Part shown: positions 44,543 to 49,229 of the stretch, piece by piece
Numbering within the stretch: position 1 is the first letter of the stretch
Layout of the letters: every line of letters starts with the position of its first letter
Source: Krasilnikovia cinnamomea
GTDB lineage: Bacteria; Actinomycetota; Actinomycetes; Mycobacteriales; Micromonosporaceae
NCBI RefSeq assembly: GCF_004217545.1
Contig: NZ_SHKY01000001.1
Span: 1,674,001-1,738,000, forward strand
Direction of reading: 5' to 3'
DNA length: 64,000 nucleotides
Position numbers and translations under genes: made by a program
The notes under the pieces: model-generated
What the model was told of the DNA's origin: nothing
What the model saw: the letters and a program-made list of their open reading frames with translations, nothing else
The model's database searches: none

Positions 44543-45214
44543 TCACCCCGGGCCCTGCCGGTCCGACCACGACGGGGGCCCGGCCAGGTTGGCCGCGCCG
44601 CCGTCGAGGATCGCCCGGTACGCCGCATCGGCCAGCCGCCGACCCCACGGCGCGCGTGGCCCGGCATAGCTCGCCACCGGACCGGCCGGTGGACACAGGA
44701 CCGCGACCGCGTCGGTCGCCGTCCCGGTGGCGGCCAGGCCCAACTCGCGGATCGCCTGCGTCTTGGCCTCCGTGACGGTGGCGACCGCGTTGACCAGGGC
44801 GCCGTCGCTGAGCCGCTGCGGCACCCACGCCACGACGTTGACCGTCCCGGCGTGCGGCCCCGGCTCCCTCCCGGGCGCGGCGGCCTGGATGGGGGAGCTG
44901 AGGCCGACCGTGGCCCACAGCCGTACCTCCCCGTCGTCGGCGGCCACCACGTCGGCGACGTCGACGCCGGTGAGCAGCCCCACGCCGGGTCCGGTCAGGC
45001 CCTGTCCGGCGGCGATCTCGCGCAGGTGCGCGGCCGGGTCGTCGCGGTCGTACGACATCGGTACGGTCGCGTTGACGATCCACCCGCACGGTCCGATCCC
45101 GCCGCCCAGCACCGCCGAGGAGATCGCGAGTGCGGGCTCGGCCAACCGCCACACCAGCAGCGGAATGTCGCGGCCCTGCTCGGCTCGGGAGCCCGGCACC
45201 GGTTCGGCGATCAT
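44543..45214 (-). CDS. cbiZ: Adenosylcobinamide amidohydrolase
   Basis: A 223-residue CbiZ-family protein. ISSAVLGGGIGPCGWIVNAT, DDPAAHLREIA, GVGLLTGVDVADV, GTVNVVAWVPQRL and ATGTATDAVAVLCPPA match the family, which converts salvaged adenosylcobinamide to adenosylcobyric acid for B12 synthesis. No other cobamide gene is in the window, so salvage would use genes elsewhere. Confidence 0.85.
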   Translation of the reverse strand: MIAEPVPGSRAEQGRDIPLLVWRLAEPALAISSAVLGGGIGPCGWIVNATVPMSYDRDDPAAHLREIAAGQGLTGPGVGLLTGVDVADVVAADDGEVRLWATVGLSSPIQAAAPGREPGPHAGTVNVVAWVPQRLSDGALVNAVATVTEAKTQAIRELGLAATGTATDAVAVLCPPAGPVASYAGPRAPWGRRLADAAYRAILDGGAANLAGPPSWSDRQGPG

Positions 45215-45249: not shown

Positions 45250-45993
45250 TCAGTCCAGCGCGGGCAAGCTCGCGGGACCCCGGTCGGGCAGCAGGAACGG
45301 CGTGTCGATGTCCGGCGTACCCTCCCCGATCCGTACGGCGGCCACGCCGGTGCCACCCGGCAGCAGCTCGCCCTGCTCGTCGCGGACCAGGAACGTGTTC
45401 GCGCCCGTGTAGATGGTGTACGTGGGCTTGCCCTCGGCCGCCCCGGTGCGGCGGAAGCGGAACTGCTGACCCGGCGCCGACGCGTCACAGGCCGCGGTCA
45501 CCACCGGCGCCGGGCCCTCGCCATTACCCCGCACCGCCACACAGGAGGCCTCCCCGCCGACCCGGATCTTCGCCGTCTGGATCAGGTACCGGTCCCCCCC
45601 GATGGGGGTGAGCACGAACAACGCCCGGTCGCCGGAACCGTCGGTCAGCCCGATCCGGCCTGAGGCGTCCACGACCACGATGCCCTCGCTGCCCACCGGC
45701 ACGAGGAACACCTGCCGCCGCCCGGAGAACACCCCGGCGGCGGTCGACTTGGCCGGTTCCGACGAGCGCGCCGCGCCGGGACGCGCCGACGCCGGGGCGG
45801 AGTGCGCCGGCGCCGGGGCGGAGACCGTCGGCGCCGGAGCGGAGAGCGTCGGCGCGGCAGCGGGGCCACTGGACCGGCCGCCCAGTCCGCTGGCGGCCGC
45901 CGGTTCGCCCTGGTTCGCGGCACAGGCCACCGAGCCGAGCAGCAGGGTGGCGGCGACGGCGCCGAGGGCGGAGGCCCGAAGGTACGCGTGCAT
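45250..45993 (-). CDS. Lipoprotein sharing its domain with the sigma partner protein
   Basis: A 247-residue exported protein. The signal peptide ends in a lipobox (LLLGSVACA). A Pro/Ala/Ser linker (25-85) leads to a ~155-residue domain that is clearly paralogous to the C-terminal domain of the next gene upstream. Shared landmarks in order: GxRQVFL, GRxGxT, GDRALFV, GGExxC, VRGNG, VVTAACD, QxFxF and DRGxAxLP. The AACD and QxF spacing recalls a ricin-like beta-trefoil, which is only a guess. Ribosome site AAGGAG is present. Third gene of the ECF operon. Confidence 0.8.
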   Translation of the reverse strand: MHAYLRASALGAVAATLLLGSVACAANQGEPAAASGLGGRSSGPAAAPTLSAPAPTVSAPAPAHSAPASARPGAARSSEPAKSTAAGVFSGRRQVFLVPVGSEGIVVVDASGRIGLTDGSGDRALFVLTPIGGDRYLIQTAKIRVGGEASCVAVRGNGEGPAPVVTAACDASAPGQQFRFRRTGAAEGKPTYTIYTGANTFLVRDEQGELLPGGTGVAAVRIGEGTPDIDTPFLLPDRGPASLPALD

Positions 45994-46041
45994 GAGGAAC
46001 TCTCCTTCGTCGAGAGGGGTCGAGAGGTGTGCGGGAGGACG

Positions 46042-46863
46042 TCAGAACGGGAGGGTGGCGGCACCCCGGTCGATGAGGACGAACGTCGTGTCGAGGTTCC
46101 CGTCGCCGAGCTCCTCGGCGATGAGTCCGGACGTGCCGGTGGGATTCCACTGCAGGTACGCGTCGCCGTTGCGGATCGCGTACGTCATGCGCCCCTGGTT
46201 GTCCCGGCCGTGCTCGGCGAACGTGAACCGCTGGGCGGGATCGCGCGTGTCGCAGGCCGCCGTGACCACGGTGAGCGGGTCGCTGCCGTTGCCCCGCACC
46301 CGCAGGCAGTACGGCTCGCCACCGGCGGTGAGCTTGCCGGTCTTGATGAGGTGTTCGGAGCTGCTGGGTGCCGTGGGCACGGGGACGAACAGGGCGCGGT
46401 CGCCGTAGTCGGCGGTGACCCCGACGCGCCCGGACGAGGTCACGGCGACCACCGACTCGGGCACCTCCTCGCCCTTGTGCAGCACGAACAGGAACACCTG
46501 CCGTTTGCCCGCGAGAACAGCGGGGTCCTGCCTGGACGGCTTACCCGACGTCGGCGGCGTGGCGGTGCGCGACGTCGATTCCGAAGGAGCCGGGGAGGAA
46601 GGCGTCGGGATAGCAGAGCGGGACGGCGACGCCGGGGCGGCGGGCGGGGCCGGGGCGGGACCCGCCCCGTGGGGTTGGGCGGCGGCGATGCCGACGCCGA
46701 GCGCCACCGCGGTGACGGCGCCGAGGGCGCCGGTGGCGGCGTACCGGCGCTTGCGGCGGCGATCCGCCCGGGCCCGCAGGTCGGCGGCGGGAGCCAGCCG
46801 CCCGTTGTGCCCGGCGTGCCGGGCGAGCGCGGCGAGGCCGCGGTCCAGGTCGTGCTCAGGCAT
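46042..46863 (-). CDS. Putative membrane anti-sigma partner with extracytoplasmic domain
   Basis: A 273-residue protein. A 38-residue cytoplasmic N-terminus rich in Arg/Ala, one membrane helix (about 41-62), a Pro/Ser/Thr linker, then a ~165-residue outside domain shared with the lipoprotein downstream. The position directly after an ECF sigma gene, with an 8-base overlap, suggests an anti-sigma or sensor role. No classical zinc anti-sigma HxxxCxxC motif is seen. Confidence 0.78.
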   Translation of the reverse strand: MPEHDLDRGLAALARHAGHNGRLAPAADLRARADRRRKRRYAATGALGAVTAVALGVGIAAAQPHGAGPAPAPPAAPASPSRSAIPTPSSPAPSESTSRTATPPTSGKPSRQDPAVLAGKRQVFLFVLHKGEEVPESVVAVTSSGRVGVTADYGDRALFVPVPTAPSSSEHLIKTGKLTAGGEPYCLRVRGNGSDPLTVVTAACDTRDPAQRFTFAEHGRDNQGRMTYAIRNGDAYLQWNPTGTSGLIAEELGDGNLDTTFVLIDRGAATLPF

Positions 46864-47368
46864 CGTGGCTCACCCTTCCGGTGGCGGGGCCGTCGGAGTC
46901 GGTCAGGTGTTCGGCCATGGCGCGGCGGCCGCGGGCCAGCCGCGCCTTGACCGTGCCGGTGGGCGCGCCGACCTCCTGCGCGATCTCGGCGACGTTCAGG
47001 CCGACGAGGTGGTGCAGGACGATGACGCGGCGCTGGTCGGCGGGGATCTGCCGCAGCGCGTGCACCAGGGCGACATGGTCGGGGCTGAGGCCCTCGACCT
47101 CCTCGCCGACCGCGTCGCGGTGGTGGGCGCGCAGCCGGTTCACGGCCTTGCGGAAGGCGCTGACCGCGTTGCGGGAGGCGACGCGGCGCACCCACGCCTC
47201 GGGGCTGTCGCAGTCCCGCACCGTGGCCCACCGGTCCCACGCCTTCAGGTACGCCTCCGCCACGGCGTCCTCGGCCTCGGCCCGGTTGCCGGTCATGGCG
47301 TACACCTGACCCAGTACCCGCCGCGACGACGCCGCGTAGAAGGCGTCGAACTCGTCGGCATCCCGCAT
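46856..47368 (-). CDS. ECF RNA polymerase sigma factor
   Basis: A 170-residue group 4 sigma factor. Region 2 is DEFDAFYAASSRRVLGQVYA with NRAEAEDAVAEAYLKAW; region 4 is LRQIPADQRRVIVLHHLVGL with AEIAQEVGAPTGTVKARLAR. The ATG at 47368 follows AGGAGAGG. Two identical promoter-like boxes lie upstream, consistent with autoregulation. Operon: sigma, membrane partner, lipoprotein. Confidence 0.93.
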   Translation of the reverse strand: MRDADEFDAFYAASSRRVLGQVYAMTGNRAEAEDAVAEAYLKAWDRWATVRDCDSPEAWVRRVASRNAVSAFRKAVNRLRAHHRDAVGEEVEGLSPDHVALVHALRQIPADQRRVIVLHHLVGLNVAEIAQEVGAPTGTVKARLARGRRAMAEHLTDSDGPATGRVSHDA

Positions 47369-47428
47369 CGATCGCCTCTCCTGCTCTGACCCGTCCGCCC
47401 GGTGTTGCTCTCCCGGCATCGAGTACGT

Positions 47429-47454
47429 GACGCCCGGGCCCGGAGGACGGTTGC
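47429..47454 (-). promoter_or_regulatory. ECF-type promoter box, proximal copy
   Basis: On the sigma strand, GCAACCG-n15-CGTC. The downstream edge is 61 bases before the sigma ATG. GCAACC and CGTC resemble -35 and -10 elements of ECF promoters. Confidence 0.6.
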
Positions 47455-47460
47455 ATCAGG

Positions 47461-47470
47461 AAAGATCTTT
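47461..47470. repeat. AAAGATCTTT palindrome between the promoter boxes
   Basis: A perfect ten-base palindrome, extended by CAGG/CCTG-like flanks (about 47457-47477). It lies between the two promoter boxes and could be an operator or a hairpin. Confidence 0.4.
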
Positions 47471-47489
47471 TTCCCTGCCATGCCCTCTT

Positions 47490-47515
47490 GACGCCTGAGC
47501 GGGCATACCGGTTGC
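47490..47515 (-). promoter_or_regulatory. ECF-type promoter box, distal copy
   Basis: Second GCAACCG-n15-CGTC in the same orientation, exactly 61 bases upstream of the proximal copy. The spacing inside the box is identical. Confidence 0.55.
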
Positions 47516-47615: not shown

Positions 47616-47969
47616 GGTTCTGTTGCTCAATGTACTAGTTGATGACGGTCAGGAGTGCGCCGCCGACGGAGCCTGCGAAGTACGAGCCGACCAGAGTTTT
47701 GTACGCCGGTAGTAGTGGCGCACCAGGTCGGGGAACTCCTGCCGCAGCCGCCGCAAAGATACCCCCTTGAGGCAGTTGACCAGCCGGGCCACGGCCACCT
47801 TAGGCGGGAAGTTGACCAGCAGGTGCACGTGGTTGTTCTCGCCGTTGAACTCGACCAGCTCGGCCTCGAAGTCGGCGCAGATGTCACGCATGATCGCCTC
47901 CATGCCGGTCAAGTGCCGATCGGCGAACACCTGGTGCCTGCCTGTGCAGATGCGTTGAACCTCAGCCAT
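47605..47969 (-). pseudogene. tnpA: Y1 (TnpA) transposase remnant
   Basis: The HUH motif NHVHLLV and ADFEAELVEFNGE, KVAVARLVNCLKGVS, RRLRQEFPDLVRHYYR are well preserved. Three lesions are seen: the N-terminal ~30 residues are missing (only MAEVQRICTGRHQVF precedes the conserved part), a one-base deletion near 47687 shifts the frame after KLWS, and in the restored frame a Gln codon has become TAG (47635-47637) just before the catalytic Tyr of INQYIEQQ. It cannot encode an active transposase. Confidence 0.85.
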
Positions 47970-47996
47970 AGACTCAACAATGAGACATTGAGGATC

Positions 47997-49229
47997 GTGC
48001 AGCTCCGTTACCGCTACCGGGTTTACCCGGACGCCGCCCAGCGCACCGCGCTGGCGCAGGCGTTCGGGTGTGCCCGGGTGGTTTTCAACGACGGGCTGCG
48101 GCTGCGTCAGCAGGCCCGCGAGGCGGGCGAGAAGTACATCTCCGACGGCGACCTGTCGAAGCGGGTCATCACGCAGGCCAAGGACACCGAGGAACGGGCC
48201 TGGCTCTGCGAGGTGTCAGCCGTGGTGTTGCAGCAGGCCCTGGCAGACTTGAACACGGCGTACCGCAACTACTTCGCCTCGGTCACCGGCAAGCGCAAGG
48301 GCCGCAAGGTCGCCCCGCCCCGGTACCGGTCCCGCAAGGACAACCGGCAGGCCATCCGGTTCACCAGGAATTCCCGGTTCAAGGTTCTCGACAACGGCCG
48401 CCTGCGACTGCCGAAGATCGGCGACGTGCCGGTCCGCTGGTCGCGTGACCTGCCGTCCGAGGCCACCTCAGTCACCGTGATCAAGGACGCGGCCGATCGA
48501 TATTTCGCCTCGTTCGTCGTCACCACGACCGAGAACGAGACACTGCCGCCGGTCGAGTCCGAGGTCGGCATCGATCTGGGCCTGATGCACTTTGCGGTCA
48601 TGTCCGACGGCGCAACGGTGACTGCGCCGAAGTTCCTGCGCCGCGCGGCCCGCAAACTCAAGCGGTTGCAGCAGGACCTGTCTCGCAAGGAGAAGGGCAG
48701 CAACCGTCGCAGGAAAGCCGTCATGAAGGTCGCCAGGGCACACGCCCGAGTGGCCGACACCCGGCGGGACTGGCAGCACAAGCTCTCCACGGCGATCATC
48801 CGCGACAACCAAGCGGTGTACGTCGAGGACCTTGCCGTAGCCGGACTCGGCCGGACCCGGCTCGCCAAGAGCGTCCACGACGCCGGGTGGGCCAGCTTCA
48901 CCACCATGCTGCAGTACAAAGCTCAGCGGTACGGGCGCACGTTCGCCCGGGTGGACCGGTACTTCCCGTCCACCCGGATGTGTTCCGACTGCGGCCGGAT
49001 CAACGAGAAAATGCCACTCGACGTCCGGGCGTGGCACTGCCCGTGCGGCAGTCATCAAGACCGGGACCTCAACGCCGCCATCAACATCAAGGCCGCCGGA
49101 CAGGCGGACTTCAACGACCGTCGAGCGCAGGTAAGACCAGGACTTGTACCGGCACCGCGCAGTGAAGCGGTAACCCACCAGAACGCCGCGCGTGCCACGC
49201 GCAGCGTGGCTGGAATCGCCGTCCCTTAG
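47997..49229 (+). CDS. tnpB: TnpB RNA-guided nuclease-like protein of IS605 family
   Basis: A 410-residue TnpB. The N-terminal HTH_OrfB region begins MQLRYRYRVYPDAAQRTAL. RuvC residues are complete: D193 (GIDLGLMHF), E277 (VYVEDLAVAGL) and D357 (HQDRDLNAAINI). The zinc knuckle has CSDCG and HCPCG (second pair spaced CxC). TnpB proteins are omega-RNA-guided nucleases that favour element retention. GTG at 47997 gives the family N-terminus; TTG at 47988 is an alternative. The stop lies within the right-end stem-loop. Confidence 0.92.
   Translation: MQLRYRYRVYPDAAQRTALAQAFGCARVVFNDGLRLRQQAREAGEKYISDGDLSKRVITQAKDTEERAWLCEVSAVVLQQALADLNTAYRNYFASVTGKRKGRKVAPPRYRSRKDNRQAIRFTRNSRFKVLDNGRLRLPKIGDVPVRWSRDLPSEATSVTVIKDAADRYFASFVVTTTENETLPPVESEVGIDLGLMHFAVMSDGATVTAPKFLRRAARKLKRLQQDLSRKEKGSNRRRKAVMKVARAHARVADTRRDWQHKLSTAIIRDNQAVYVEDLAVAGLGRTRLAKSVHDAGWASFTTMLQYKAQRYGRTFARVDRYFPSTRMCSDCGRINEKMPLDVRAWHCPCGSHQDRDLNAAINIKAAGQADFNDRRAQVRPGLVPAPRSEAVTHQNAARATRSVAGIAVP

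Follow-up and report, generated by a model that had tools for sequence, protein, structure and literature searches.

A stretch of 64,000 nucleotides of Krasilnikovia cinnamomea DNA (the window) carries three genes that lie head to tail on the minus strand: S (46856..47368), encoding an ECF sigma factor; M (46042..46863), encoding a type II membrane protein of 273 amino acids that is predicted to be an anti-sigma factor and sensor, with fold and topology likewise predicted; and L (45250..45993), a lipoprotein-like gene whose 247-residue product has Cys24 after a signal-like stretch, as read from the sequence. S and M overlap by 8 bases and a gap of 48 bases separates M from L; from this overlap and spacing we infer that the three genes are cotranscribed. 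An earlier sequence-only reading of this DNA had given the coordinates and strand of all three genes and the 8-base overlap, which were correct on recheck. S has a longer open reading frame reaching to 47419, but its likely start is better placed at 47368 (MRDADEFDAFY, 170 aa), since close orthologues begin at MRDAxEFDAFY. Two promoter-like boxes of the form GCAACC-N14-GGCGTCA precede S on the minus strand: P2 at 47428..47454, with 59 bases from the end of the box to the sigma ATG, and P1 at 47489..47515. Both are intact despite a neighboring IS200/IS605-type element (Y1 transposase, TnpB/OrfB) at 47649-49229, which lies between a HAD gene and the boxes; at loci L098, L035, L156, and L218 the HAD-sigma distance is about 60 to 170 bases. 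At the other end, cbiZ (44543-45214, same strand), encoding the adenosylcobinamide amidohydrolase CbiZ, begins about 36 bases past the stop of L and might be cotranscribed with it; a tblastn search found cbiZ absent from 29 of 29 sigma-locus stretches.

S matches the Pfam families Sigma70_r4_2 (2.2e-14) and Sigma70_r2 (2.7e-11), both over the cut-off, and passes the TIGR02937 model for ECF sigma factors (69.7 bits; cut-off, 42.9), while its score against the SigE family model TIGR02983 falls narrowly below the cut-off (137.5 versus 141.55 bits). Relatives of S were found at E 1e-40 in 34 of 67 genomes of the genus, and 29 loci with matches above 200 bits, the window included, made up our set of S loci. 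An M-type N-terminus is encoded next downstream of S in every one of them (28 of 28 relatives and the window).

M consists of a basic N-terminal helix, one hydrophobic span, a Pro/Ser linker, and an exported domain. In the predicted model a helix at residues 3 to 19 is followed by a second at residues 23 to 54 that continues into the membrane span, so that the cytoplasmic part, of some 40 residues, has two predicted helices. Residues 1 to 40 (46744..46863, minus strand) form a basic segment that is predicted to bind the sigma factor, on the basis of the model helices and of the conservation of this N-terminal family. The zinc anti-sigma (ZAS) motif HxxxCxxC is lacking, as the sequence-only reading had held, the first cysteine of M being C186, and no Pfam match of the RsgI N-terminal domain to M was obtained at E values up to 1. 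With these two predicted helices and its short cytoplasmic part, M may be comparable to the CnrY-type class II anti-sigma factors, a group defined by a cytoplasmic part of <50 residues whose two helices wrap the sigma factor; the accessible text of PMC7406223 describes a pair of helices and a very short anti-sigma region.

The exported parts of M and L are paralogous. M and L share 99 of 251 aligned residues (BLASTP, E 1e-36), and the C-terminal domains share 72 of 148 aligned residues, with a local score of 285, whereas none of 2000 shuffles scored above 59. As initially observed, GxRQVFL, GDRALFV, GGExxC, VRGNG, VVTAACD, and DRGxAxLP recur in this order over the last ~155 residues of both proteins. 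No other copy of the domain was found in the same genome at E 1e-6. Structure prediction, which the sequence-only reading had suggested, returned models of both domains whose top matches are beta-trefoils. The exported domain of M (residues 114 to 272; 46048..46524, minus strand) is assigned here to type A and that of L (residues 90 to 245; 45259..45726, minus strand) to type B, the latter being delimited by its identity to M, by trefoil matches, and by a model pLDDT of about 94. Pfam Ricin_B_lectin scores of 13.6 and 13.9 bits stay below the gathering score of 29. In R-type lectins the sugar-binding Asp stands after CL in the repeat; this residue was seen in none of the 127 readable sequences among 129 relatives, and the position of the Q-x-W motif in the same 127 reads Q-x-F in 117, Q-x-W in 6, and Q-x-I in 4. 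The sub-threshold Pfam scores and the lacking key Asp led us to reject an ordinary R-type lectin, and in view of the missing Asp the ligand may be something other than a sugar. The window-type trefoil profile matched M in 6 of the 29 S loci; a related fold is likely for the exported parts of the remaining M proteins, because a C-C-Q-x-W/F-like pattern occurs in M of all 28 relatives.

The lipobox of L is atypical, reading S-V-A-C in the window, and falls outside the classic form, which has L, V, or I at -3. Among non-M homologues, fragments included, 84 of 99 have a Cys within residues 14 to 60, and 16 of these 84 Cys-bearing relatives have a classic residue at -3. Lipidation and a surface location of L are predicted from these sequence features.

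GCAACC-N14-GGCGTCA has two exact matches in the 7.6 Mb of the K. cinnamomea genome, P2 and P1, both before S. The box occurs in all six loci of the close clade (the window, G056, G055, G018, G077, and G011), whose sigma factors are 82 to 87% identical to that of the window, and the upstream boxes mentioned at the outset are thus conserved in the close orthologues. Over the 29 S loci it is found in nine, these six and three more distant ones, and is lacking in 20; it is doubled in three loci with L downstream (the window at 47428-47515, G056, and G055; loci L098 and L099) and single in six S-M loci. Since the box stands in all six close-clade loci and has only two copies in the genome, we infer, with good support, that S likely drives its own operon, L included. 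A second box, GAAATC-N15-GCGTGT, precedes L in loci in which L lies upstream of S: it is exact in 11 of the 14 such loci, has one change in L222, and was found nowhere else among the 272 loci examined, and the first box was not seen before the L genes of these 14 loci. The AAC and CGTC cores are in keeping with an ECF promoter. Both box types keep the same spacing, and box and sigma factor therefore seem to have changed together. In many of the loci with L upstream of S (L219 to L235, by eye) a GTTATC...CGTTAC-like element, perhaps the site of a second regulator, stands just upstream of the second box.

Box matches elsewhere call for caution. One-mismatch forms of the first box number 44 in the K. 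cinnamomea genome versus 21 in a reversed control; 28 of the 44 were recovered as loci, and 27 of these 28 lie inside open reading frames of at least 200 aa, a count to be read with the fact that chance open reading frames are common at this GC content and that both true boxes also fall in one. A wide regulon was considered, and with 27 of 28 boxes within open reading frames we claim no further target. Exact matches summed over the 67 genomes come to 144 versus 26 in the reversed control, 13 of them before these sigma genes; because exact boxes are widespread in the genus (55 of 67 genomes) and many are the same few strings across several genomes, an exact box does not by itself prove a promoter.

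The shared domain itself ranges well beyond the sigma operons. Searched at E 1e-6, the window-type domain is present in at least 59 of the 67 genomes. We examined 60 domain loci (58 of 60 retrieved stretches, mostly the best scoring, together with the window and locus L035 of G018). A close sigma gene with M was found at four of them (the window, G056, G055, and G018), and 56 had no close sigma gene, weak sigma-like open reading frames being present in two (L135 and L145). A domain specific to sigma operons is ruled out by the 56 loci that stand alone. A comparison of the genes around the lone copies was dominated by antisense open reading frames, and we draw nothing from it. The interpretation given in the sequence-only reading is partly supported: L recurs beside S-M, as described below, and the window-type domain stands mostly away from sigma genes. 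The many L relatives without a close sigma gene are what would be expected if L were an effector alone, a surface binding protein or adhesin with no signaling role, the shared domain merely matching sensor to product; such a match is on record in Clostridium thermocellum, where the GH10 domain of RsgI6 resembles the secreted product Xyn10D and is reported to be 57% identical to it (accessible text of PMC4711584). However, L lies inside the switch's own operon, where its dose would follow the switch, and the lone domain copies have no exact first box in the stretches examined; we regard a purely effector role as unlikely.

When the last 150 residues of each locus's own M were compared with its stretch (BLASTP, E 1e-4), a paralogue of the exported part of M was found to flank S-M in 17 of the 29 S loci (16 of 28 relatives and the window), in two gene orders; the arrangement first noticed in the window is therefore a recurring one. 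L lies downstream (S-M-L) in the window, G056, which has two L genes, and G055. In 14 of the other 26 loci, which are more distant, L lies directly upstream of S (L-S-M) and is 42 to 55% identical to the exported part of M. Most of these 14 lipoproteins start with what resembles a signal sequence that ends in Cys, the L-S gap is 3 to 43 bases in the 10 loci whose sigma start could be set, and their type of domain is too distant for the window-type domain profile to detect. In the tree of the L-S-M loci they make up a single clade (support, 98/93) separate from the M proteins, with no mixing of M and L, and by this phylogeny L-S-M is an old L/M pair kept together. Of 129 relatives in the protein database, 30 are window-type M proteins, and equal-sized longest contigs suggest that 11 of the 30 share a contig with an L; this evidence is indirect, and many of the other M proteins lie on contigs too short to judge. 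The 11 include pairs from two other Krasilnikovia genomes and one from Actinoplanes whose locus tags are consecutive.

In the remaining 12 S loci, G018 included, no paralogue of the exported part of M was found in the stretch searched (some stretches are short on one side), and the core switch can thus manage without L. This pattern bears on whether L could be a co-sensor, in contact with M through their domains or through a ligand bridging them, on which the triggering or blocking of sigma release depends. The CseA lipoprotein offers a precedent (PMC8999054), L flanks S-M in 17 of 29 loci, and in 14 L-S-M genomes L and M are old separate lineages kept together, as partners would be; but the 12 loci without L, and the origin of the M and L domains of the window in different clades, count against it, and we consider a co-sensor role unlikely. 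The same 12 loci, with the commonness of lone copies in the genus, which would make capture easy, could be taken to mean that L beside S-M is a tandem duplicate or captured lone gene kept by chance with no shared role. That is very improbable: the pairing is found in both gene orders and with two domain types that have diverged, and a single L lineage has persisted in 14 genomes, preceded by a conserved box of its own.

The domains have a more mobile history in the window's own clade. The order SMC-HAD-sigma-M is syntenic in the window, G056, G018, G011, and G077, with sigma factors 80 to 92% identical, while in G055 the operon lies elsewhere. In G002 the place is decayed: the operon orthologue there (L028/L243) has an internally deleted sigma gene and a shortened M, and its box is still exact. 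At this syntenic place M has a type A trefoil in the window and G018 and a type B trefoil in G056; the form in G011 and G077 falls outside the profile. Type B is also found in the window L, whose domain groups with M domains from other strains. The domains of M and L in the window, 47 to 48% identical, fall in different clades, which rules out one recent M/L duplication in this strain. A single clade for all M domains was rejected (p-AU 1.6e-7); we rely on this all-M test because a topology test of five M domains was set up after the first tree had been seen and includes the nonsyntenic G055. The first tree was built from 88 of 136 domain rows, omitting kinases, fragments, and a good many lone copies; 70 selected rows went into the second tree and 31 rows of 17 loci into the third; L036 and L037, the same places as L101 and L102, were counted once. 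The M/L label changes nine times in the second tree, where at least seven changes are forced by starred branches, and at least four times in the first. Three supported clades (100/95, 97/89, and 98/87) unite the M and L rows of paired loci, a pattern that a co-sensor would also be expected to leave; two of the three depend on pairing deduced from equal-sized contigs. Two M proteins retain the anchor and differ in the trefoil: P0072 M and the window M are 76% identical over the first 64 residues but 42% in the trefoil, and the P0072 trefoil is 66% identical to the window L; for G056 M the corresponding values are 67%, 43%, and 63%. The simplest reading of these comparisons is an exchange of domains between M-type and L-type genes at the linker, which on present sequences is confined to the window's clade, with none in the L-S-M loci. 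Such exchange favors a shared ligand class, and the different types of M and L in the window argue against strict ligand identity in this strain.

Our preferred reading, to which we give an even chance of being right, is that the operon is a self-amplifying ECF sigma/anti-sigma switch and that L is its output, a surface binding protein that also damps the switch by competing with M for ligand. M would hold S at the membrane through its short cytoplasmic segment, and its exported trefoil-like domain would bind a ligand outside the cell; release of S would need proteolysis or a change of shape. Freed S would transcribe its own operon from P1 and P2 and thereby make L, which would display the sensor-type module at the surface and take the same class of ligand as M. 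A matched M/L pair beside a sigma factor in many relatives makes it likely that L binds the same kind of molecule as M, and competition for that molecule would damp the switch, so that we favor an effector role combined with titration. A broader proposal is possible rather than probable: the surface copy of the sensor domain is the output of the switch, L absorbs the ligand of M so that the operon sets its own sensitivity, such a sensor/decoy pair arose on at least two occasions beside a single sigma lineage (as S-M-L and as L-S-M), and one branch retunes the pair by exchanging trefoils between the sensor and decoy genes while sigma factor, anchor, and promoter remain constant.

Parts of this switch have counterparts in known systems. 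In the SigI/RsgI systems of C. thermocellum a membrane anti-sigma factor has an exported binding domain and the sigma factor acts on its own promoter (PMC4711584, accessible text), and the operon resembles them in the exported binding domain of the membrane partner and in a sensor domain that resembles an exported product. They differ in belonging to another sigma family, in an RsgI N-terminus of about 165 residues, in CBM3, PA14, or GH10 sensors, and in that the product genes named there are separate ones, whereas M has some 40 residues in the cytoplasm and a sensor of beta-trefoil-like form, and the operon itself encodes the product. In ECF52 (SCO4117 of Streptomyces coelicolor) an actinobacterial ECF sigma factor is likewise linked to a membrane span, a proline-rich stretch, and an exported module, which there is a carbohydrate-binding one (PMC5826349, accessible text). 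ECF52 is, however, one fused protein with a zinc finger; the operon has separate S and M genes, no zinc motif, another module, and the additional L, and so falls outside that group. CseA, a lipoprotein that takes part in the ECF sigma pathway of S. coelicolor SigE, offers a comparison for the predicted lipoprotein L; it differs in working with the CseBC two-component system, and the accessible text of PMC8999054 reports no domain shared between CseA and an anti-sigma factor. The view that the arrangement is undescribed accordingly holds in part. Sigma-linked exported binding modules are known from RsgI and ECF52, whereas our literature search, which most subscription journals lay outside, turned up neither an anti-sigma partner with a beta-trefoil nor a lipoprotein that copies an anti-sigma sensor.

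The locus offers a compact, testable case of an ECF system whose sensor and lipoprotein share an exported module and are encoded side by side in either of two gene orders. Its exported domain can vary with sigma factor, anchor, and promoter box unchanged. Its promoter boxes and likely shared ligand class provide handles on the operon. The partner protein may belong to a wider class. TIGR02983 has 46 matches listed in the K. cinnamomea genome, other ECF factors included, and each of the best 9 of these 46 (at least 137 bits, window S included) is followed by a small-anchor membrane protein; by eye, the nine partners (loci L038 to L046) combine a short, basic N-terminal segment and a single hydrophobic span with an exported part that differs. 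This class, with its short zinc-less anchor and varied exported part, seems little described: a full-text search for the family's two names, with most subscription journals outside its range, listed a single paper. A Pfam scan of 10 open reading frames assigned no family to seven and identified the other three as Ser/Thr kinases in which the domain follows a hydrophobic span; these membrane kinases (L149, L150, and L152) carry, as their exported part, a distant relative of the M/L domain.
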